Part shown: positions 12,149 through 31,865 of the stretch, piece after piece | Layout: every line of letters starts with the position of its first letter | How positions within the stretch are numbered: position 1 is the first letter of the stretch | IMG/VR virus record: IMGVR_UViG_3300008113_000807 | Coordinates: 1 to 32,667 of that record | Reading direction: 5' to 3' (one strand) | DNA length: 32,667 bases | DNA from: a virus | Translations under genes and position numbers: made by a program | The notes under the pieces: generated by a model | What the model saw: only the letters and a program-made list of their open reading frames with translations | Databases searched by the model: none | What the model was told of the DNA's origin: nothing

Positions 12149-13167
12149 TTTTTTCCTGTCGGTACACAGTTGTCCACTGTCTTGCCGCCTTTCTTCTTAG
12201 TGCCCATGCGCTTGTAACCATCCCAGCACACTTTGCCGTCAACACCTTTTTGTTTGGCTTCTGCAAGATTCAAGTAGCCACCCCAATCGTGTACTATTTC
12301 GCCTTCAAAACCCGGTCTATCTTTAAGGGTAACACGATCACCGACTGCTAACCCTGTGCTTCTCGAGACATCGGCTTGTCTTTTTAAATACTCTGCATGT
12401 TCAGGGTCGAGTTCTTCTGCCACACTTTCTTGAGTTTCCGGACCCACTTTATAATACTTTCTTTTTGGATCATATATACCAACTTGACCACTGGCGTTCA
12501 TGGCCATTGTGGCACCGTTAGGCATTTTTTGTGTTGCAAACTTGGCATCAGGATAACGAGCCCGTACTGATTTTTCCCACGAGTCTATTGACACTCCTAG
12601 CGGTTCAACTGTTAATGGATTACCTTCAGACGCATTGTTTTCTGTGGCAGGTGCTCCAGTTACACTTACTTCCCATTTCTTGCCTGTGGACTCGCTCTTT
12701 TTAGCGGCCCAGACTTTTAATTGTTTATAGTGATTTCTTTCAGCCGAGTCGTCAGCATATTGACCACGACCTTTGAATACTTTCCATGGCTTGCCGTTGA
12801 TAGAAACAGCAAAGTTGTTTGGTGGTTCTGTGTTGCCTTCGTCATTTTCTCTTTCTCTACTGCCCATGTCCACACTTGAATCGTAGTCACGTTGATAAGA
12901 GTCACGACGACCTCTATAACCTGCTTCTTCAATTTCAACACCCATCTTGTCATCAAACAATCCGGGTTGCAAAATATCTTTACCAACTGCATGATATGAA
13001 CTCATGAATGCATTGAACTTGGACATCATGTCTTTTAACAACTGTTCATCAGCATTGATTTTAATTTTATCAATGTTGCTCATAACTAGGTCATTGATCT
13101 TGTCAGCATCGATCAAGAAAGTGTTGGCGTCGCCACCAACGCTGTCTGCTTCGAAACTTGTGATCAC
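12145..13167 (-). CDS. Modular accessory protein of unknown function
   Basis: A 340-residue hydrophilic protein. Residues 1-85 look helical (DKINDLVMSNIDKIK). A middle region carries NNFAVSINGKPWKVFKGRGQ and a YPDAKFATQKMPNGATM segment. Near the C-terminus VGDRVTLKDRPGFEGEIVHDW resembles a small SH3-like barrel, and the last 35 residues, AKQKGVDGKVCWDGYKRMG then TKKKGGKTVDNCVP, form a Lys-rich Cys-containing tail of a type I recall in marine phage proteins. LAE before that tail would fit a prohead-protease site. No enzymatic motif. It overlaps both neighbours as ATGA. Confidence 0.65.
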   Translation of the reverse strand: MITSFEADSVGGDANTFLIDADKINDLVMSNIDKIKINADEQLLKDMMSKFNAFMSSYHAVGKDILQPGLFDDKMGVEIEEAGYRGRRDSYQRDYDSSVDMGSRERENDEGNTEPPNNFAVSINGKPWKVFKGRGQYADDSAERNHYKQLKVWAAKKSESTGKKWEVSVTGAPATENNASEGNPLTVEPLGVSIDSWEKSVRARYPDAKFATQKMPNGATMAMNASGQVGIYDPKRKYYKVGPETQESVAEELDPEHAEYLKRQADVSRSTGLAVGDRVTLKDRPGFEGEIVHDWGGYLNLAEAKQKGVDGKVCWDGYKRMGTKKKGGKTVDNCVPTGKK

Positions 13168-14357
13168 AGACTCTTTAGCAACTGCTGACTCTCTAATGCA
13201 GTAACCACTTCTTTGGCAACTTCAACTGACTCGGTCTTCTTAGCAATGGCTTTTTGTAGTCCAGGCGGAAGTTTTTTCTGCTTGTCTGACAGGCCTTTGG
13301 AAGTACTAGGCTTCTTATCAGCGTGGTCATCTTTGCCAGGCTTCTTGTCTGCCCAATTTGGAACACCATCGCCGTCATCGTCTGGCTTCTTGGCCTCGTC
13401 GGTCTTGTTGTCTTTTGTTGGCGGCACTGACGGCGCTGGCTTCTTTTTCTTGAAAGCCGGGTAGCCTGGTGGCACTGGGAAAGAGGCCTCGTCCATGATC
13501 TTGGCAATTTTCTTTTTCTTTTCTTCTGTATTTTCTTTTTTCTTTTTATCTTCTGCGGCTTTCTTAGAGTCAGCGGTTTCACTGACTAGTTTGCCGTCTT
13601 TGTATCTCTTAACAGAACCTGGATTTTTCTTTTCGTAGTCTTTAGTGTCTTGAGCCTGCGCTTTGTCAGCGGCTTTGTCTCCAGCCTTTTCGGCAGCAGA
13701 TTTAGATTTGGCCTGTGACTTTGGTTCAGTGTGCGGTTCATCTGTATACTTGTGTGTACTTGTATGCTTAACACCGGTACGCTTACCGTCTTTGTCATAC
13801 TGTACTTCTGTCTTGCCTTCTGACAATTTCTTTTTGCAATCAGCCACCATTTGCTTTAGTTCTTTCTGGTCACAATCAGGATGCATTTTGCAAATTTCTG
13901 CCACGCTCTTGCCATCCTGACACATTTTTTTAATGTGTGACATTGGAGGACATTTCTTCATCATTGCTTTTTTCTTGGCACTTTCTAACAGTGCATGTAG
14001 TCGTTGTTCGTAGTTCATAGATTCTTCCATATCGGTTATTGGTTTTTCATCGTCTTCCTCAGACACTGTGTTTGCAGAACCCATTTCCGCTTCACCTGTA
14101 ATATCTTCCACACTGGATGCTTGACCGCCACCACCGAATTTCATTTTATATTCCATGTAGTGATATACTGAGTCCAGATAGTCTGCAGATTTAGTAATCT
14201 TGGCCTGTACCCATCCCTCTAGTTCTTGCCCTTCTTGAACCATTTGGAACAGTTTCATGGCGTTTTTGGCAGCACGATACAAGTCTGCACGGGCCATAGC
14301 GCCTTCTCCGTCGCTGGCTTGTGGTGCTTGCATCTGTGGTTTTACTTCGTTCTGCAT
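13164..14357 (-). CDS. Lysine-rich modular accessory protein
   Basis: A 397-residue protein. Residues 20-75 form an ordered helical module (ARADLYRAAKNAMKLFQMVQ, GWVQAKITKSADYLDSVYHY). Residues 136-174 hold five Cys (KKCPPMSHIKKMC, HPDCDQ, VADCKKK). Residues 180-320 are low-complexity Lys/Asp/Ala. DDDGDGVPNWADK at 326-338 is a thrombospondin-type-3-like calcium loop, and SDKQKKLPPGLQKAIAKK near 357-374 is a recurring phage module. AGGAGA stands six bases before the ATG, so it begins a translational unit. The charge suggests DNA association inside the head; function unknown. Confidence 0.65.
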   Translation of the reverse strand: MQNEVKPQMQAPQASDGEGAMARADLYRAAKNAMKLFQMVQEGQELEGWVQAKITKSADYLDSVYHYMEYKMKFGGGGQASSVEDITGEAEMGSANTVSEEDDEKPITDMEESMNYEQRLHALLESAKKKAMMKKCPPMSHIKKMCQDGKSVAEICKMHPDCDQKELKQMVADCKKKLSEGKTEVQYDKDGKRTGVKHTSTHKYTDEPHTEPKSQAKSKSAAEKAGDKAADKAQAQDTKDYEKKNPGSVKRYKDGKLVSETADSKKAAEDKKKKENTEEKKKKIAKIMDEASFPVPPGYPAFKKKKPAPSVPPTKDNKTDEAKKPDDDGDGVPNWADKKPGKDDHADKKPSTSKGLSDKQKKLPPGLQKAIAKKTESVEVAKEVVTALESQQLLKSL

Positions 14358-14378
14358 CTCAATCTCCTGATATAATAT

Positions 14379-15539
14379 TTAGCGTTTAGCAATGCTGCCG
14401 CCGGTCATTAGGTTTCCGCCCTTCATGTCCAGGGCATTAGTACCGGGTTTTTGCATTTTAGCCCGTTTATTCTTATAAACTGCACCCACACCCACCATTG
14501 CTGATGTTGTTGATCCTGCTGAAGCGCCACCCTCACCGTCTTCTTTTACGTGCTCAGGCTTGCCCTTGTGCTTGGTCGCGGCATAGTCTTTAGCAGACTT
14601 TTTACTCATTCCTTTAGCCGCTTTAGCAACTTCTGGACTAGCAGGCTTTTCACCCTTTTTAGCCGCATAAACCATGCCCATGAATTTCTGTTGTGCTTTG
14701 CTTTTTGCTTTTTCAGTTACATAGGTTTCCGCTACACCTTGCTTGCCTTGTGACGAGTTTTCTATCTGCTTAATAGCATCATACAACACCCATTCCAATC
14801 GACTAGTGTATCCTTGTGGGAATGTGGCTTTACCTGTTTGTACCTGTTTGGCTATAGCCCTCAGGCCGGCTAGTTCTTTTACTGTGTTCTGAGCACCTTG
14901 ATCTGGATTATCTCTTAATGCGTTAATGGCATCGTACAATGCTACTTCTAATTGGCTAGCAAATCCTTGCGGGTATTGGGCTTTTCCGGTTTGTATTTGT
15001 TTTACTGTAGATCTTATATTGACTAACGATTGCACAGTGTCATCCCCACCCGAGCCTTCCGCCACACCTTGACCACTTATTCCTTTGAATTCACCAGTGG
15101 CCTTATTGAACAGGCTAAGCCATTGGTTAGATAAGTCAATAAGTTCTTGATCTTTTTTAGGATCTTGTTGTCCCCGGTAGTCTGACCTCATTCTAATACT
15201 ATCAAGTAAATCGAGAAATTTTGAAGCATATTCCATTTCGCGGCGAATCTCCGCCACGCCCTGAAGTTTTCTGCCCGCAAGTTTTGCAAACAAGTCAGAC
15301 CATCCTCTTTTATCGAAAAGTTTATATTGTCTAACCAATTCTTCAACTTTATCAGCCACGCTGAATTTATTATCAGCACCTTCCGCCACTGGCTTCTTAT
15401 GTTTTTCATGCCGCGGAAGAGTCTTGCTTTTATCCTTCATTTTGCCAGCACCGCCCATTTTGGCATTCTTTGCCACAAAATTGCGTGGTTTGGCCGCGGC
15501 AACAGTTTTAGATTCTGTGATAATTTCTATAATTTTCAT
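14379..15539 (-). CDS. Putative capsid-targeted modular protein with tandem repeat and DUF3008-like domain
   Basis: A 386-residue protein starting MKIIEIITE then SK, which fits a capsid-targeting peptide with an I-x-E cleavage site. Four VAE elements stand at module borders (residues 51-53, 95-97, 159-161, 269-271), two of them followed by Gly. Two homologous 44-residue repeats lie at 168-211 and 219-262, both with the QTGKA.(Y/F)PQG core. Residues 277-333 (KAKSKAQQKFMGMVYAAKKG, KKSAKDYAATKHKGKPEH) match the DUF3008-type helical domain. The tail is Gly-rich. ATGA couples it to the ParB-like gene. The architecture suggests a processed virion polyprotein; this is inference. Confidence 0.7.
   Translation of the reverse strand: MKIIEIITESKTVAAAKPRNFVAKNAKMGGAGKMKDKSKTLPRHEKHKKPVAEGADNKFSVADKVEELVRQYKLFDKRGWSDLFAKLAGRKLQGVAEIRREMEYASKFLDLLDSIRMRSDYRGQQDPKKDQELIDLSNQWLSLFNKATGEFKGISGQGVAEGSGGDDTVQSLVNIRSTVKQIQTGKAQYPQGFASQLEVALYDAINALRDNPDQGAQNTVKELAGLRAIAKQVQTGKATFPQGYTSRLEWVLYDAIKQIENSSQGKQGVAETYVTEKAKSKAQQKFMGMVYAAKKGEKPASPEVAKAAKGMSKKSAKDYAATKHKGKPEHVKEDGEGGASAGSTTSAMVGVGAVYKNKRAKMQKPGTNALDMKGGNLMTGGSIAKR
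14754..15038 (-). repeat. Two-copy protein-coding tandem repeat
   Basis: Codons for 44 residues (14907-15038) are repeated at 14754-14885 with a short spacer. Protein identity is about half (QIQTGKAQYPQGFASQLE against QVQTGKATFPQGYTSRLE, then LYDAI in both), while DNA has diverged, so the duplication is old. Confidence 0.75.
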
Positions 15540-16546
15540 TTTTTCTTTCCTCTACGCATATTTAGTTGCCATTGCGCCATACGTCTACGTTCGCCTGTGC
15601 TGGAACCAGCAATCTTTTCTAACTGTCCTAGTGTTGATTTTTTAGGAATACCCACACGTTTGCTAAGACCTTTACGTCCTGGTTTCTTACCATCAGCAAA
15701 GTTCTCCGCCACATCTGGACGGCCTACTTCTTCTACATCTTCAGCAGGAACAAGTTGTGCCGGAATACTTTTTACGCCTACTAATTTATATGCCCAAAAT
15801 CTATGATGGCCATCTAACACTTGATACCCATTCTTGTATTTACGAACCAACAATGGTGGCAACTTGTCACCTTTTTTTAGTCCTGCAACAATCTTTTCAA
15901 CATTGGCTTTACTTTTAGGTTGAGTCATTTTATCATCGGGTTCGAATCCTACTAATTGATTTGCTGGAATGTTTATCACTGGACCTGTCGCTTTATAATC
16001 GCCCACCTCAGCACCGTACCAATTTGGATCAGTACTTAATTTAATTTTGTCTGATGAGTTCTTACTATCAGCAAAGTTTTCTACATTATATCTAGGATCA
16101 GTCTTTTGACGCTTCGTACCTTTAGGCTGATTAGGGTCCACAGGATCAATGTCAGTTGTAGTAAGACCCGTTTTTGCTAAGTTTTTAATGTACTCATGCT
16201 CTTCCTCTTCACTGCCAAACGCAATAATAGTACTAGGAGGCCCTTGACCAAAGTCATGTTTACCAAGTCCATCAAGATTGCTAATGTGTTGCCCTAATTT
16301 ATACCAATCGTATACATCACCAACGTCTACTCTAACTGTGCCCTTGGGCATGGTAGGTTTTGTTTCTGGCCCGTAAGGCACATCATTAACGTGCTTATCT
16401 TCGCCTACACCGCCACCGTCTCCGCCATCTCCACTGTAACCAGTGTTCACACCATACATGCCAAATGGTCCTGGACCATAAGCAGCCCTGCGTGACTTAG
16501 ACCGTTTACGCTTACGACCTTCGCTGACAATTTCGTGCATTCTCAT
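15536..16546 (-). CDS. ParB/sulfiredoxin-like domain protein, putatively capsid-targeted
   Basis: A 336-residue protein. MRMHEIVSE then GR is a capsid-targeting-like start. Residues 10-50 are Arg-rich then Gly-rich (GYSGDGGDGGGVG). Residues 190-270 match the ParB N-terminal/sulfiredoxin fold: VINIPANQLVG, LPPLLVRKYKNGYQVLDGHH then RF, with the DGHHR nucleotide/phosphate motif at 245-249. VENFAD occurs at 155-160 and AENFAD at 280-285, bracketing the domain. The tail ends RRRMAQWQLNMRRGKKK, a recurring phage module. ParB-like domains can be nucleases or CTP-binding; activity here is untested. Confidence 0.7.
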   Translation of the reverse strand: MRMHEIVSEGRKRKRSKSRRAAYGPGPFGMYGVNTGYSGDGGDGGGVGEDKHVNDVPYGPETKPTMPKGTVRVDVGDVYDWYKLGQHISNLDGLGKHDFGQGPPSTIIAFGSEEEEHEYIKNLAKTGLTTTDIDPVDPNQPKGTKRQKTDPRYNVENFADSKNSSDKIKLSTDPNWYGAEVGDYKATGPVINIPANQLVGFEPDDKMTQPKSKANVEKIVAGLKKGDKLPPLLVRKYKNGYQVLDGHHRFWAYKLVGVKSIPAQLVPAEDVEEVGRPDVAENFADGKKPGRKGLSKRVGIPKKSTLGQLEKIAGSSTGERRRMAQWQLNMRRGKKK

Positions 16547-16830
16547 ATCTTCTTTTCCCCAGTCATGTATGGCAAACTAAACCACAACTTGAACCATTCT
16601 GGAGTACCGGGTTTGATATTGTGCTCACGTTCTAGTTCTTGATTGCTCATGCCAGTGGCAGATATGTTACTGCCTTGCATGCCTTTGTATTCGTGCAATC
16701 TTGCTGTATGACCTAACCCTGCAAGATACTGAATAGACTTTATTTCGTGAATAGGATCAGAAGGATCTAGGTAACAATCATCTGAACTTTCTTGATTTAA
16801 GTTTTCACTGGTGATGTTGTATTGCTTCAT
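16543..16830 (-). CDS. Small modular accessory protein
   Basis: A 95-residue protein. The C-terminal part, REHNIKPGTPEWFKLWFSLP then YMTGEKK, is a distinctive module I recall from other marine phage accessory proteins. The N-terminal part (DDCYLDPSDPIHEIKSIQYL) is acidic. No enzymatic motif. It lacks the N-terminal targeting-like peptide of its neighbours. It overlaps neighbours as ATGA at both ends. Confidence 0.65.
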   Translation of the reverse strand: MKQYNITSENLNQESSDDCYLDPSDPIHEIKSIQYLAGLGHTARLHEYKGMQGSNISATGMSNQELEREHNIKPGTPEWFKLWFSLPYMTGEKKI

Positions 16831-18476
16831 ACCTTTTTTAGATTACCCCACTGATCTTTACTAGTAGTATCTCGCTTGGCAATGTCTCTGCCTTTTAGTT
16901 GGTCTTGTCTGCGTTGGTCGCCTGCGGCACGTAGTTTAGCAACTTTGCCATCATCTCTATTGGCTAAGCGACTTGCCGTGTTTGCCATAGCATTACTATC
17001 AGACTCTGACACACCATGTCGTTTCATTAAACTATGAATTTGACTGCCAGGCTTTGCTTTTTGTCCAGATTTTAAAAACGCACGGATCATGCTCAATTCT
17101 TGTTGCTTGCGGTTATCAGAATTGTCACTAGCAGGTTTGGCACCGGTATTGTCATCACTGCGGTCTGACTGAGGTTCGTAGTACCAGCCCATGCCTGCGT
17201 CATCACTGCCTGTGCGTTTTGGATTATCAAATTTGAAATAGGCAATTTGATCTTTACCCCAATAGCCTTTGAACTCGCCAGTGACGTCATTCATATCTTC
17301 ACGATCAAAATGATCTGCTTCAAACTGACTAAAGAAATCTACACTACGACGATACGACTCTGGCTTAGGATACTTGTAAGGATCGTCACCGCCTTCGTCA
17401 TCACCGCCTGAACCAGGAGCAAATTCTTTCAGACCTTCCTTTGCACCCTGTTCGCCTTTGATGGCTGTTAACATTGCACGAGCCACCACACGATCTTTTT
17501 CTTGTTCTTCGTCAGACAATTGTGCGTATGGTATGTTCATTAACTTTTCACGTTGCTGAAGTTTTGCGTCTAGTTTACCAGCAGCCCGTAATTTTTCTGT
17601 GTCATCAAATTGATCTGGGTTTTGTACAAATGCTCTGGCAGTGATATTCCACCCCATGTGAATAGCATTACTAATTGTTTCAATATTGGTGACACCTTTG
17701 TCAATCACCTGTTTAGCATTGGCAGCAGATTTTAAATTTGCTTGCCATCCAAACGTATTACCTGGACTACTACGACCGTAACCATAGGCCTTATCTAATG
17801 CTTCATCACTGATAGTTGCTAATTGTTGAACACTCAACTGTCCTGTGGATTCTGGTACTTTTTTATTGGCTGCTTTTTTAGCGGCCAACCTGTCTTTACT
17901 TATTTTAATTTTATCAAGCGTATCAGCATATGGTAATAGGTATTCTGCCACCAGATCAAAGAATGGTTTGCCATCAACTGGAGTGTCTGCACTAACCCCA
18001 GCGGCTTTGCTAAATGCATCTCTATCACCTTTGATCACAGCATCACGTAGTGCAGTTGCTGAACTCAATCGAGGTGTAGGCTTTTGTTTAATATCTGCAA
18101 AGTTGTAATAGCCATGCTGGCCTTCCTTGCCATTGTACTGTACAATAGTTTTAGTAACCCAGTCTTCGTCAGTTAATGCCAACAATGTTGCCTTGGGATA
18201 CTGTTCGTAAATTTTACTGGCCATTGTTAGCCAACCTGTTTCTGGCATGATATGACTAGCAACTTCTGGCCATACTGCCTTCATTGCTTCTACCTTAACA
18301 TCATAAGGCAAGGGATCCTTTGGACCTACTGTGCTTTGATTAGTGCCAACATACCAGATAGGACTTTGGCTGGCCAATTCCCATGCGGCTTTGTGACCCA
18401 TGTGTGGAGGATTGAAGCGGCCAAATATAATGGCAACTTCATTGGATGGTGCTTCGAATAGTTGTCTTAATCTCAT
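16827..18476 (-). CDS. Nucleotidylyltransferase (NMNAT-like) fused to RyR-like region, putatively capsid-targeted
   Basis: The ATG at 18476 overlaps the preceding TGA (ATGA) and gives 549 residues starting MRLRQLFE then AP, a targeting-like peptide; a start four codons earlier (18488) hides this. Residues 12-190 form a HIGH-type nucleotidylyltransferase: AIIFGRFNPPHMGH (HxGH at 25-28) and RLSSATALRDAV (SSxxxR at 138-144). NMN adenylyltransferases of this family make NAD; phage KVP40 is known to carry NAD genes. Residues 272-340, with GWNITARAFVQNPDQF and NIPYAQLSDEEQEKDRVV, resemble an RyR domain. The remainder is an acidic module and a basic tail (KLRAAGDQRRQDQLKGRD). Substrate not proven. 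Confidence 0.78.
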   Translation of the reverse strand: MRLRQLFEAPSNEVAIIFGRFNPPHMGHKAAWELASQSPIWYVGTNQSTVGPKDPLPYDVKVEAMKAVWPEVASHIMPETGWLTMASKIYEQYPKATLLALTDEDWVTKTIVQYNGKEGQHGYYNFADIKQKPTPRLSSATALRDAVIKGDRDAFSKAAGVSADTPVDGKPFFDLVAEYLLPYADTLDKIKISKDRLAAKKAANKKVPESTGQLSVQQLATISDEALDKAYGYGRSSPGNTFGWQANLKSAANAKQVIDKGVTNIETISNAIHMGWNITARAFVQNPDQFDDTEKLRAAGKLDAKLQQREKLMNIPYAQLSDEEQEKDRVVARAMLTAIKGEQGAKEGLKEFAPGSGGDDEGGDDPYKYPKPESYRRSVDFFSQFEADHFDREDMNDVTGEFKGYWGKDQIAYFKFDNPKRTGSDDAGMGWYYEPQSDRSDDNTGAKPASDNSDNRKQQELSMIRAFLKSGQKAKPGSQIHSLMKRHGVSESDSNAMANTASRLANRDDGKVAKLRAAGDQRRQDQLKGRDIAKRDTTSKDQWGNLKKV

Positions 18477-20749: not shown

Positions 20750-21400
20750 TTAAATTTCCGAAACTGTGCGTAATTCGTCGACTCTGCGTATTCTATCGCC
20801 TAAAAACAAGTGACACAGGCTAAGAGTTTTTGTATCGGCTACATAAAAATACCCACCTAACCGATAATTATGAGGCATTACTTTTAACTTAGGCAGTTGT
20901 TTAGCCCATCCCTTGAACCCAGCAGAATCGTCAAGGGGGTTAACTGTGACCTTGTACTTGTGTGAATATTCGGGACGTATAATAGTTTTAGGATTGGCCA
21001 GTAGGAAATCTTTAATTTTATCATCCGCAGGCTTTGAAATTTCCTTGACATGATAATCGTAAAGTTCTACGATAGTATCGATATCAGTTTCTTCATTGGT
21101 ATAGAATGACAGTGTAGTGCCTTCTACTCGTATAGTTGAATCTGTTTGTGTTTCTAGCAGTACAGTGAACGCTAAATCTCGATATACTTCATCAAGTCTA
21201 ACTTGAACACGGTTCCACGAATGCCCTACTAGTGTTTCGGTACTACCGTCTCTTAGCATAGTATCTTTATAGGAGTCTAGATACATTCTAGTTTGGTCCA
21301 TATCGTTACCTCTAAAATTACTAGCCAGTGGTGTAATGACAGCAATTTTATAAAGGTAACGATCGAAGAATAACTTTTTAGTCTTCTTGGACAAATACAT
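20750..21400 (-). CDS. Conserved phage protein of unknown function
   Basis: A 216-residue soluble protein: basic N-terminus (MYLSKKTKKLFFDRYLYKIA), an alpha/beta middle and a C-terminal HNYRLGGYFYVADTKTLSLC. No motif recognised. It overlaps the ClpA-like gene by 23 bases and so belongs to the DnaJ-PDF-ClpA operon. Unlike its downstream neighbours it lacks a capsid-targeting-like start. Confidence 0.7.
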   Translation of the reverse strand: MYLSKKTKKLFFDRYLYKIAVITPLASNFRGNDMDQTRMYLDSYKDTMLRDGSTETLVGHSWNRVQVRLDEVYRDLAFTVLLETQTDSTIRVEGTTLSFYTNEETDIDTIVELYDYHVKEISKPADDKIKDFLLANPKTIIRPEYSHKYKVTVNPLDDSAGFKGWAKQLPKLKVMPHNYRLGGYFYVADTKTLSLCHLFLGDRIRRVDELRTVSEI

Positions 21401-23618
21401 TTTCAGCCATTTCTAAATCAATATTACCGTCAACTACGATAATTTTAACTCGACCACCTTGCTTGAGATTACCAAATAACATTGCCCTACTTAATGGACG
21501 TTTGATATCTTTATCAATGACTCGTTGCATTGGACGAGCACCCATCTTTTTATCAAATCCTTTTTCAACCAAGTAGTCAATTGCTTCGTCACTGATGGTG
21601 ACATCGATGCCCTTGTCTTTGACCTGAGTTTTAAGTTCCACTAAGAATTTACCAACAATTTTAATCATTGTGTTCTTGGTCAACTTGCCAAACGTAATAG
21701 TACCGTCTAAACGATTACGGAACTCCGGAGCAAAGAATTTCTTAAGTTCTTTGTCCTCGTAGTCGTTGTCCTGGCTACCAAAGCCAATAACATTCTTGTC
21801 AGCATCTGCCGCACCCAAGTTAGTTGTCATAATCAGCACAACATTACGAGCATCTGCTTCTTTACCATTACTGCCAGTGATCTTACCATTGTCCATGATC
21901 TGCAACAAGATAGTTGACACATCTGGATGGCTCTTTTCAATTTCGTCCAGCAATAGAACACAATGCGGATTCTCTTGCAGTTTAGTAATCAACAAGCCAG
22001 CATTTTCTTCAAAGCCAACATAACCTGGAGGCGACCCAATTAACTTGCTGACACTGTGTTTTTCCTGATACTCGCTCATATCAAAGCGGATCATAGGAAT
22101 GCCAAGTTGTTTGGCCAACTGCTTGGCAGTTTCAGTTTTACCAGTACCTGTTGGACCCATGAATACAAAACTACCAATAGGCTTGTTTTCACTTTTCAAT
22201 CCTGCTTGTGCAACAAGGATCTTATCAACAACTTCGTCAATGGCTTCATCTTGTCCGTAGACTTCTGCTTTGAGATTTTTCTCAAGGTTAACAAGATTAC
22301 TACTTTCACGTTCACTGACTGTTTCTTCAGGAAGGTTAACCATCTTAGAAAGTTCAAATTGAATTTCTTTAACATTAACACTACGTTCAGCGCCTTCGTC
22401 TTTTAAATTAAAGCGACTGCAAGCCACGTCGATCAAGTCAATGGCCTTGTCCGGCAACTTACGATCCGTGATATACTTCACACTGAGTTTAACTGCACTT
22501 TCCACTGCTTCATCACTGATGACAACCTTGTGGTGGTCTTCGTAGTACTTCTTAATACCTTTGAGGATTTCAACAGCCATTTCCTGTGTAGGCTCGTCAA
22601 CTGTAATGCGTTGGAATCTGCGCATGAGCGCACGATCCTTTTCAAAATGCTTGCGATATTCTTCCCAGGTAGTTGAGGCTACAACCTTGATAGTGCCCTT
22701 GCTCAATGCAGGCTTCATCATGTTAGCAAGGTCGTTGCTACTTTGTTGTCCTCCGGCACCGGCACCGCTGATCATGTGTGCTTCGTCAATGAACAACACT
22801 GTTTTGCCTTTGCCCTGTAGTGCCTTTAACACAAGTTTGAAACGCTCTTCGAAGTCGCCGCGATACTTGCTACCAGCCAGCATACTGCTGATATCTAAAT
22901 TATAAACAGTGTAGTCTTTTAGGAACTTGGGAACATTACCATTAACAATGTTGTGTGCTAGGCCTTCTGCAATAGCAGTCTTACCAACACCAGGGTCACC
23001 TACTAGCAATACGTTGTTCTTGGTGCGGCGGCCTAGACCCAGCGCAATTTGTTCCAGTTCAAAACTACGTCCAATAACTGGATCAACTTTATTCTTCTTA
23101 ACACTGTCATTCAAGTTAGTAGTAAATGCACGTAGAGCACGTTCTGCTTGTCCATCAGATGCTTGTTCTTCTTCTCCAGTATCTGTTTCACTGTTGATGA
23201 AATCTCCAAACTTGTCTTTGTCAACTCCGCCGTGGGCAAAATAGTAGACTGCAAAACTGCGTTTTTCACTGAGCATACTTAGGAATACATCTACAAGTTC
23301 AATGCTTTGGCGTCCACTAAACAATACCTGTGTAAACGCACGATTCAACACACGCTCAACGGCCTGTGTTTTCTTGGGCTTGTACTTTCCGGGCACTTCT
23401 ATTTTGATATCATCACATTTGGTCTTGAGATGATGTTCCAGATTAGTTTTAATGTAATCTGCATTTGCACCGTAGTTGCTGATCATTTCGTAGAACTTCT
23501 CTTCGCACATCATGGCAAATGCCAAATGCTCGAGGGTCATGTATTCATGACTAAGTTTCTTACAATCTCCTACAGCCTTTTCAAATACGGCTTGTAGTTG
23601 TTCACTTGGTTCTACCAT
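21378..23618 (-). CDS. clpA: ClpA-like AAA+ unfoldase (Clp ATPase subunit)
   Basis: A 746-residue double-AAA+ protein, like bacterial ClpA (758). It has an N-domain (about 1-140), first Walker A GDPGVGKT (207-214) and Walker B VLFIDEAH (274-281), second Walker A GPTGTGKT (488-495) and Walker B VLLLDEIE (554-561), and PEFRNRLD (631-638). IGF at 611-613 occupies the place of the ClpP-docking loop (IGL in E. coli ClpA); ClpB lacks such a tripeptide. No ClpP is seen in the window, so it may dock to host ClpP. AAAGGAA precedes the ATG. It overlaps the deformylase gene by 17 bases. Confidence 0.93.
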   Translation of the reverse strand: MVEPSEQLQAVFEKAVGDCKKLSHEYMTLEHLAFAMMCEEKFYEMISNYGANADYIKTNLEHHLKTKCDDIKIEVPGKYKPKKTQAVERVLNRAFTQVLFSGRQSIELVDVFLSMLSEKRSFAVYYFAHGGVDKDKFGDFINSETDTGEEEQASDGQAERALRAFTTNLNDSVKKNKVDPVIGRSFELEQIALGLGRRTKNNVLLVGDPGVGKTAIAEGLAHNIVNGNVPKFLKDYTVYNLDISSMLAGSKYRGDFEERFKLVLKALQGKGKTVLFIDEAHMISGAGAGGQQSSNDLANMMKPALSKGTIKVVASTTWEEYRKHFEKDRALMRRFQRITVDEPTQEMAVEILKGIKKYYEDHHKVVISDEAVESAVKLSVKYITDRKLPDKAIDLIDVACSRFNLKDEGAERSVNVKEIQFELSKMVNLPEETVSERESSNLVNLEKNLKAEVYGQDEAIDEVVDKILVAQAGLKSENKPIGSFVFMGPTGTGKTETAKQLAKQLGIPMIRFDMSEYQEKHSVSKLIGSPPGYVGFEENAGLLITKLQENPHCVLLLDEIEKSHPDVSTILLQIMDNGKITGSNGKEADARNVVLIMTTNLGAADADKNVIGFGSQDNDYEDKELKKFFAPEFRNRLDGTITFGKLTKNTMIKIVGKFLVELKTQVKDKGIDVTISDEAIDYLVEKGFDKKMGARPMQRVIDKDIKRPLSRAMLFGNLKQGGRVKIIVVDGNIDLEMAENVFVQED

Positions 23619-24108
23619 TATATTTCCTTTGTCGTTTACGGGCTAAATCTAATTTGAGTCTACTAACTTTAGTTATAAAACAAATACCATCTAGGTGATC
23701 AATTTCGTGTTGAACACACTTAGCATCCATGCCAGTAAGTGTTATTGTACATGATTTTTGATCTTTGTCAAGATAATTCACAGTAATATTGTCGGATCTT
23801 TCTACTTTGATGAATAGTCCTGGAAAACTTAAACATCCTTCTTCGTCAGTGCAGACGCCACTTTGACTGATAATTTCTGGATTAAACATGCCAATGGGCG
23901 TTTGGCCTTTGGGTTGCACAACGATAACTCGCTGATCAAACCCAACTTGATTAGCGGCAATGCCCATACCATTGTATGCTTGCATCAGTGCAGTCATACG
24001 TAGTTCAAGTTCATGCGTATCTACCGTACCATCAAAGTTAAACGGTTCTAATTTTTGTGTCAGTAATATATCGGATTCTAATCTTAGACTAAGATTTTCA
24101 AATTGCAT
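23602..24108 (-). CDS. def: Peptide deformylase
   Basis: A 168-residue enzyme removing formyl groups from nascent protein N-termini. All three signature motifs are present: GMGIAANQ (47-54; family GxGxAAxQ), EGCLSFPG with metal ligand C92, and HEIDHLDG (H134, E135, H138). Deformylases are known in aquatic T4-like phages. AAGGAA lies six bases before the ATG. It overlaps both the DnaJ-like and ClpA-like genes, giving a protein-maturation operon. Confidence 0.95.
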
Positions 24109-24922
24109 ATTTCTTCCTTAACTGTTCAATAAGGACTTTATCTTCTTCAGCAATGTTAACAGGAGTTCTGACATTGATCTTTACGTACATGTTTCCTCGA
24201 ACATTACTTTGTGCTTCGGGTAATCCGTGTCCTTTGCAGTTTATCATTTGACCACTTTGAATTCCCACGGGCACTGAAATTTCTAATTTGCTGTCTGCAA
24301 TAGTGTCCACAGTTACAGTAGTGCCTACCACGGCATCGAACACTGTGATATTTGCCTCCATGACCAAATTGGCTCCGTCCCTTGCAAATCGTCTATCGGG
24401 TAACTCAATGATTTGTGCAATCAAATCTCCACGAGGCATATTAGGAATACTGTCATCACCTAGTCCTTGGTATTTGATTTGATCGCCGTTCCTTACACCA
24501 CGAGGAATTTTGATTTGCAGTGTTTGTTCTTTTCCGCTGGGTAGTCGTATGCTACCCAATACATCCTTGCCTTCAAACACTTCTTTCAAAGTCATTCTAA
24601 CTTGAATAGTGATACTGTTGTTGCGGCGAACCTGTTGTTGCCGACGTCCCATGCCCATGGGGCCAAATCCAAATTGATTGAATATATCTTCAAACCCGCC
24701 CATGTTTCCAGTATTGAATCTATACTCTTGTTGTGGATTATCGTAGGCTGCTTTGGCCTGGGGATCACTGAGTGTGTCGTAGGCAGTTTGGATTTCTTGA
24801 AACTTGGCCGTATCACCACCTTTGTCAGGGTGATGCTGACTGGCTAGTTTTCGATAGGCTTTCTTAATTTGGTCTGGACTAGCATCCCTGCCAACGCCTA
24901 ATGTAGTATAGTGATTGCTCAT
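24098..24922 (-). CDS. dnaJ: DnaJ/CbpA-like J-domain co-chaperone
   Basis: A 274-residue Hsp40. The J-domain spans 3-65 with HPD at 31-33. A short Gly/Phe-like linker ([17 protein letters not shown]) leads straight into the substrate-binding beta domains ([18 protein letters not shown]), without the CxxCxGxG zinc finger, so it is class B (CbpA-like). It should stimulate host DnaK. It is first in the operon with deformylase and ClpA-like protein. The promoter at 24943-24971 gives a leader of about 14 bases with no Shine-Dalgarno. Confidence 0.92.
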
Positions 24923-24925
24923 AGA

Positions 24926-24960
24926 AAAAAGGTATAGTAATTATTATACTATACCTTTTT
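24926..24960 (-). terminator. Hairpin terminator/operator overlapping the dnaJ promoter
   Basis: A perfect 14-base-pair inverted repeat (24926-24939 with 24947-24960, 7-base loop) followed on the minus strand by a run of six T. It could terminate transcription from the lysis cassette, ending 18 bases past the 24978 stop. It also covers the -10 box of the dnaJ promoter, so it could be an operator. Confidence 0.7.
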
Positions 24961-24971
24961 GTGAAAGTCAA
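24943..24971 (-). promoter_or_regulatory. Sigma70-type promoter for dnaJ-def-clpA operon
   Basis: Minus strand TTGACT (24971-24966), 17-base spacer, consensus TATAAT (24948-24943). Transcription would begin near 24936, leaving a leader made mostly of the distal arm of the inverted repeat. Confidence 0.7.
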
Positions 24972-31078: not shown

Positions 31079-31107
31079 ATTATACAGAATAAAAAAGGGC
31101 CTGTCAA
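31079..31107 (-). promoter_or_regulatory. Perfect consensus sigma70 promoter
   Basis: Minus strand TTGACA (31107-31102), exactly 17 bases, TATAAT (31084-31079). The -35 box lies in the loop of the terminator at 31094-31115 and the T-run in the spacer. Six bases after the -10 box comes AGGGAG, so the mRNA should begin at the ribosome site. Probably a strong early promoter. Confidence 0.85.
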
Positions 31108-31119: not shown

Positions 31120-31482
31120 TTATTTTACGAACGGTTTTAAATCCGGCGGTGTCCAACCTACTGGCTTGAGTACCTTACCATCTTCTCGTTTTCGAACCTT
31201 GCCGGTTTCGTGATCAATCTTGGCAAAGTTAGTTTTCATAACTTCTTTCCAAGCACCTTCGGCATCGGCACCCATTGAGTGAATAGCGCCAATAGTCACA
31301 ACCAAAATATCTATCAACGCATCTAGTTGTTCTACACGATCGTTGTCAAGAAGTGCTTGATCGAATTCTTTCTTTTCTTCTTCAATGAGATTAGCGTACA
31401 TAAGATATTGTTGAGGATTACGGTCATCTACAGTTTGATCGCAGGCTCGCATAAACTTCTCTTGATCGCGAAACGGGTTCAT
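31120..31482 (-). CDS. MazG-like/phosphoribosyl-ATP pyrophosphohydrolase-like protein
   Basis: A 120-residue all-alpha NTP pyrophosphatase: EEEKKEF (34-40) and DALIDILV with D54 and D58 form the ExxE...ExxD-type metal site. NFAKIDHETGKVRKREDGKV and a Pro-rich tail follow. Such enzymes hydrolyse (d)NTPs or ppGpp-like nucleotides; marine phages commonly carry MazG types. Exact substrate unknown. Coupled by ATGA to the co-chaperonin gene. Confidence 0.8.
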   Translation of the reverse strand: MNPFRDQEKFMRACDQTVDDRNPQQYLMYANLIEEEKKEFDQALLDNDRVEQLDALIDILVVTIGAIHSMGADAEGAWKEVMKTNFAKIDHETGKVRKREDGKVLKPVGWTPPDLKPFVK

Positions 31483-31865
31483 AGTACCTTACCAAAGTCA
31501 GATAGTGACGGTGCGGCTGCTCCGTCGATAGTTCCAATAATCGCTGTGTCTGGCTTCTCAGTGTCCCACATCATGACACAGTTGTTATCAATTAATCGAA
31601 TTGTTTTCTTTTCACCGGTCTCAGTTTCGATATCGATGCCTCTACTCCAGCGACCGTGTTCTAACAAGATCCAATCCCCAATACCAAACTCTTCTTTGTG
31701 CTCTGGACCAACTGCATATACCTGCGCCCACCGTGGATGGATGCCCCTGTCTTTGCCGTTGTCGCTGGTCAACACAATACCGCTGGCTAGTACTTGCTCT
31801 CCAAAGTCCATGTCGATCACTAGCACTTTGTCTTTGATTGGCTTAATATTACCTGTGACTGCCAT
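31479..31865 (-). CDS. 31: GroES/gp31-like co-chaperonin
   Basis: A 128-residue protein with the GroES beta-barrel: IKPIKDKVLVIDMDFGEQVL at the N-terminus, a mobile-loop region (ASGIVLTSDNGKDR), and WAQVYAVGPEHKEEFGIGDW. T4 gp31 replaces GroES on host GroEL to fold the capsid protein; this protein is longer than GroES (97) and near gp31 (111). The stop/start junction with the upstream gene is TAATG. Confidence 0.85.
   Translation of the reverse strand: MAVTGNIKPIKDKVLVIDMDFGEQVLASGIVLTSDNGKDRGIHPRWAQVYAVGPEHKEEFGIGDWILLEHGRWSRGIDIETETGEKKTIRLIDNNCVMMWDTEKPDTAIIGTIDGAAAPSLSDFGKVL

Follow-up and report, generated by a model that had tools for sequence, protein, structure and literature searches.

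In E. coli, ClpA acts within the ClpAPS complex (PDB 6w1z and 7uiv series; PMC9663308) as a protein with an N-domain and two AAA+ rings, and its flexible IGL loop (residues 610-628, with Leu619 named) docks in the clefts of ClpP (PMC9663308); for ClpX-ClpP, I/L-G-F has been described as the standard docking motif (PMC7112952). Jumbo phages are already on record as carrying ClpA, DnaJ, and a set of Clp proteins (PMC6102473, PMC7824862, PMC12619734). These phages include Agrobacterium phage Atu_ph07 and the RaK2-like phages (PMC6102473; PHROG 4871), in which our searches also identified ClpP and ClpS, and the Moraphages, large aquatic phages described from 24 genomes, in which ClpA is among the core genes (PMC12619734). 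According to a published remark, there are phages that code for ClpS in place of ClpP (PMC7824862). To these reports we add a test of how well the docking loop is conserved, the finding that ClpA, ClpP, and ClpS occur together, a pattern relating the docking loop to the ClpP pocket, and a promoter located within a hairpin.

The window analysed here is the whole of a 32,667-base virus record and hence a fragment; its genes for a family B DNA polymerase, a clamp loader, PhoH, and lysis proteins suggest that it comes from a large T4-related phage. As the first-pass annotation had stated, genes for a DnaJ-like protein, a deformylase, and a ClpA-like protein overlap in one operon (Table 1): the three open reading frames were confirmed on the minus strand, with overlaps of 11 bp (dnaJ/def) and 17 bp (def/clpA), and clpA overlaps the next gene, encoding an orphan phage protein, by a further 23 bp. 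The GroES-like gene placed elsewhere in the window by the same annotation was also recovered (PHROG 931, head morphogenesis; PHROG 3188, GroES), and the takeover of folding, maturation, and degradation that it had proposed is, as a whole, plausible. This gene content resembles that of the Moraphages, in which ClpA is a core gene, DnaJ is frequent, and PolB and PhoH are present, although the paper describing them makes no mention of a deformylase (PMC12619734).

Our preferred reading, to which we assign a probability of roughly 0.6, is that clpA supplies the unfoldase half of a Clp protease encoded mostly by the virus, with a phage ClpP as the usual partner. Six ClpA subunits would unfold selected proteins and feed them into the ClpP barrel, to which the IGF loops would tether the ClpA ring; the gene for this ClpP would usually lie at another place in the phage's own genome (host ClpP may serve too), and a phage ClpS adaptor would often select the substrates. 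The DnaJ-like protein, together with host DnaK, would fold phage proteins and the deformylase would mature them, both being co-expressed early from a sigma70-type promoter.

Table 1. Positions of the operon, its predicted control elements, and the co-chaperonin gene in the window.
Feature	Position	Strand	Description
Orphan phage protein gene, next after clpA	20750-21400	minus	AlphaFold2 model: two ferredoxin-like halves
clpA	21378-23618	minus	746 aa; Pfam AAA, AAA_2, and ClpB_D2-small
IGF codons (ClpA residues 611-613)	21780-21788	minus	Position, alignment, conservation, structure model
def	23602-24108	minus	168 aa; Pfam Pep_deformylase
dnaJ	24098-24922	minus	274 aa; Pfam DnaJ and DnaJ_C
Terminator-like hairpin	24928-24960	minus	GGTATAGTA/TACTATACC, then T6; -10 box in loop
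Putative sigma70-type promoter	24943-24971	minus	TTGACT-N17-TATAAT; upstream of dnaJ; 11/12 consensus positions
GroES-like / T4 gp31-like co-chaperonin gene	31479-31865	minus	Outside the operon; PHROG 931, PHROG 3188

The dnaJ product is predicted to be a J-domain co-chaperone, as it matches Pfam DnaJ (E = 6.4e-22), carries HPD at residues 31-33, and has a C-terminal substrate domain (DnaJ_C). It scored 206 bits against a cut-off of 377.2 for the bacterial zinc-finger DnaJ (TIGR02349), and no zinc finger was found in it; the TIGR02349 match is gapped at that place, and the sequence contains a single Cys. Only one of 23 ClpA-bearing records encodes a DnaK; the partner recruited by the J-protein is therefore probably the DnaK of the host, and a phage-encoded DnaK as general DnaJ partner was rejected on the same count. 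The def product is a predicted peptide deformylase, with 125.9 bits against the TIGR00079 cut-off of 103.95 and all three metal and active-site motifs (GxGxAAxQ, EGCLS, and HExDH). A search of the open-access literature found nothing on phage deformylase or on phage ClpP.

For the clpA product, the features point to a two-ring AAA+ unfoldase of ClpA-type architecture, with an N-domain and two AAA+ modules and without a long middle domain. The PHROG 4871 profile ("ATP-dependent protease") covers residues 5-739 in a full-length match (E = 1.6e-249), Walker A motifs are located at residues 207 and 488, and among solved structures the best matches are those of E. coli ClpA (E = 6e-202); residues 7-727 align end to end with residues 5-734 of E. 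coli ClpA, neither protein having a long middle-domain insertion in the alignment. Unlike E. coli ClpA, the window protein falls in a separate phage clade, stays below the cut-off curated for the bacterial ClpA equivalog (NCBIfam TIGR02639; 892.1 bits against 993.15), and has IGF in place of IGL; its gene shares an operon with dnaJ and def rather than neighbouring clpS. The TIGR02639 cut-off was likewise out of reach for all 24 other phage ClpAs, and we therefore file the window protein in a phage ClpA-like clade rather than as a bacterial ClpA. This clade also holds the ClpAs of Atu_ph07 and the RaK2-like phages, which are only 39-45% identical to that of the window. In a tree built with FastTree, a quick method, and with E. 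coli ClpB as the one outgroup, all phage ClpAs formed one branch (support 100) separate from bacterial ClpA; as judged from sequence, phage ClpA is descended from a ClpA-like ancestor. The clpA genes of four contigs from bacterial MAGs (L096, L097, L098, and L099) were also placed in the phage clade, suggesting that these contigs may be phage DNA binned with bacteria. The top tblastn match, Acinetobacter phage MD-2021a (L093, CAKLQF020000008.1), was dropped as phage evidence: bacterial housekeeping genes surround its clpS-clpA pair, its clpA groups with bacterial ClpA, and the stretch looks bacterial rather than phage.

The tripeptide IGF at residues 611-613, which had been singled out from the start as lying where ClpA binds ClpP, aligns with IGL in the KSIGLIHQDN stretch of E. 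coli ClpA, which places the docking loop at the same position in both proteins. Our alignment sample comprised 80 close viral contigs, contigs found via dnaJ, bacterial genomes, and named phages. Conservation in related phages, the check that the first-pass annotation had called for, was assessed in 60 phage ClpAs less than 95% identical to each other (pairwise identity: median 70%, minimum 42%) and bears that assignment out; the first residue varies only from I to V, GF is invariant, and the columns just before and after are variable. Among 288 tripeptide windows in D2, IGF alone was as conserved with flanks as variable, a rank that was computed after the motif had been inspected, at a position fixed beforehand by the initial finding; going by these alignments, the conservation is not due to chance. 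That the loop is merely inherited from a bacterial ancestor and now unused would accord with the descent of phage ClpA from a ClpA-like ancestor, but is hardly credible for a tripeptide kept amid variable flanks across sequences down to 42% identity. In an AlphaFold2 model of the window ClpA (mean pLDDT 82.6), residues 611-617 form a coil between two helices with pLDDT below 50, the lowest-confidence coil of the model, consistent with a flexible loop as expected of the IGL loop. The conserved tripeptide and the predicted flexible loop together support a ClpA that would be built for docking on a ClpP.

The same observations bear on the proposal that ClpA and DnaJ work without ClpP, either assisting virion assembly or acting on aggregates, in the role of an unfoldase or disaggregase. 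DnaJ is a constant neighbour of ClpA, as would suit a role like that of DnaK-ClpB disaggregation, and a jumbo-phage survey has proposed unfolding or virion-assembly roles (PMC7824862). However, a near-invariant docking tripeptide would be needless without ClpP; the IGF-type motif is common to phage ClpA and bacterial ClpA relatives and is missing at the same position from E. coli ClpB, and the window protein, at 746 aa, matches ClpA end to end rather than the longer ClpB. We consider such a ClpP-independent remodeller quite improbable.

Of the 13 long contigs that belong to the window's clade, 10 carry a ClpP-family gene (PF00574; E down to 5e-84), including G001 and G013, whose ClpAs are 83% identical to that of the window, and 5 carry ClpS. 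Nine of these ten ClpPs closely resemble E. coli ClpP (54-66% identity); the sole ClpP-family gene of G007 is distant (21% identity). No clpP was seen in the 32.7-kb window, itself a fragment, and no ClpP-family gene in three long relatives (G003, G006, and G010), which are all fragments as well; the G003 contig ends beside clpX, and in G012, a relative of G003, clpS and clpP occupy the corresponding place. A stretch of about 5 kb in G012 (L086 record, 12224-17486), a distant relative, holds clpP, clpS, and a clpX-like gene.

Ten complete isolates picked for having ClpA all encode both ClpP and ClpS, the ClpS match of XaC1 being below the family cut-off. As controls we took 11 more large phages; one of them, Serratia phage BF, fetched before its ClpA was known, carries ClpA, ClpP, and ClpS, bringing the complete ClpA-bearing genomes with both partners to 11 of 11. 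Among the ten large control phages without ClpA, none has ClpS and three have ClpP-family matches (full-length in Bacillus phage G, weak in KVP40 and phiR1-37); because the isolates come from few lineages, these 11-versus-10 counts are not independent, and because clpP is not adjacent to clpA, the pairing of ClpA with ClpP rests on co-occurrence. The presence of ClpS together with ClpP in all 11 genomes affects the remark that phages may encode ClpS instead of ClpP (PMC7824862). The Ser-His-Asp triad is intact in all aligned phage ClpPs. Two forms of phage ClpP can be told apart (L191-L194, L202), one of which carries some 10 extra residues after the catalytic His (RVSSGTPG...VQELQFED). A leucyl/phenylalanyl-tRNA-protein transferase (PF03588) was absent from all 23 ClpA-bearing records, and a complete N-degron pathway was rejected on that ground.

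Given ClpP and ClpS in all 11 complete ClpA-bearing genomes and ClpP in 10 of 13 clade contigs, the likeliest partner of the window ClpA is a phage ClpP, and we infer that the genome from which the window derives carries a clpP of its own. With relatives that carry ClpP and often ClpS, these phages probably bring most of their own protein-shredding machine.

The docking interface was compared at 15 residues that we take to line the docking pocket of E. coli ClpP. Where the ClpA loop ends in F, the partner full-length ClpPs keep 8-13 of the 15 E. coli residues, a range that leaves aside the distant second-type ClpPs of G001 (5) and G007 (4); where it ends in M or V (IGM, IGV, LGM, MGM, VGM, and MNM), the partner ClpPs keep 3-7. 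Serratia phage BF, with a VGM loop and 5 of 15 pocket residues, fits this pattern and was added after the pattern had been seen. In the RaK2-like phages, the third residue of the tripeptide is changed (IGM, IGV, and MNM) where the pocket of their own ClpP has diverged. The changed loops all lie within one branch of phages in the tree, and the pattern may thus reflect few events together with general divergence of those ClpPs.

These results weigh against the use of host ClpP that the first-pass annotation had implied, in which phage ClpA would dock on host ClpP and direct it to phage-chosen substrates; any phage ClpP would then do other work. IGF conforms to the I/L-G-F motif known from ClpX-ClpP (PMC7112952), the motif is common to bacterial ClpA relatives, so that host ClpP could accept the phage loop, and the window itself has no visible clpP. 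Yet relatives and all complete ClpA-bearing jumbo phages tested (11 of 11) keep a triad-intact ClpP of their own, and docking on host ClpP alone would not predict that the RaK2-like tripeptides differ where the phage's own ClpP pocket differs; we regard this explanation as unlikely, while granting it some weight. Beyond the preferred reading of a mostly virus-encoded protease, we put forward, tentatively and at somewhat less than even odds, that several jumbo-phage lineages carry a self-contained viral ClpA-ClpP-ClpS protease with a docking interface that co-evolves within the phage and, among the RaK2-like phages, departs from the motif usual in bacteria; such a protease may operate without the host Clp proteins. 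Should this hold, regulated protein degradation would be something that some phages carry out for themselves, the loop and pocket pairs would provide a natural way to test how AAA+ motors stay matched to their peptidases, and there would be a direct route to ask which proteins phages destroy, whether defence proteins, early regulators, or misfolded virion parts.

Gene order around clpA is well conserved. A dnaJ gene is located upstream of clpA in all 81 loci whose contig extends that far, with def between the two in 45, no room for it in 33, and another or an unrecognised gene in three; lysis genes lie upstream in 49 of the 57 loci with 4.5 kb available. The DnaJ-deformylase-Clp order is also present in Sinorhizobium phage Phosso, and DnaJ directly upstream of Clp in Agrobacterium phage Atu_ph07 and in PA5oct; recurrence at 41-45% ClpA identity suggests that the order is old. 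In the sampled RaK2-like phages, by contrast, no dnaJ adjoins clpA, and most of these phages have an altered docking tripeptide.

In 81 of 86 loci, a homologue of the orphan gene after clpA starts no more than 200 bp from the end of clpA. Its product was modelled by AlphaFold2 with a pLDDT of 96 and has confident matches to phage proteins only, one of them in Atu_ph07. It matches no Pfam, PHROG, or NCBIfam family, and the model has no PDB match with E < 0.001; identification as a known adaptor was therefore rejected. The top VIA-align Z score of 5.5 may reflect just the common ferredoxin-like arrangement. The protein is a candidate adaptor or regulator.

The putative promoter upstream of dnaJ, identified by consensus match, was the joint best of the region scan. 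About half of the relatives have a promoter matching 11-12 of 12 consensus positions upstream of dnaJ, and 51% of 61 distinct dnaJ upstream regions contain a promoter better than 95% of shuffles, compared with 0% for the holin gene, 2% for def, 5% for the orphan gene, and 15% for clpA. From the promoter type, we infer early expression of the operon by the host polymerase. A T4-type late promoter (TATAAATA) as the driver of the operon was rejected, since the window contains 35 one-mismatch matches where chance would give 51, and none of the matches near the operon is exact.

The terminator-like hairpin surrounding the -10 box folds better than 300 shuffles in which the promoter boxes were held fixed, and the hairpin was significant in 25 of 35 promoter-bearing sequences under the same restriction, with stem letters that differ and promoter boxes that stay. 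A T run follows the hairpin in the window's clade; other relatives keep a hairpin with a different stem. With the -10 box inside a terminator-like hairpin, one DNA element could both terminate transcription arriving from the lysis side and initiate that of the dnaJ operon. In five records (L021, L033, L048, L060, and L064), the dnaJ start ATG is 5-8 bases past the -10 box, suggesting that the dnaJ mRNA may be leaderless there. A second promoter-like sequence on the minus strand of the window (31079-31107) is an exact TTGACA-N17-TATAAT, with GGCCC and a T run in its spacer, as if a terminator tail had been reused as promoter spacer.
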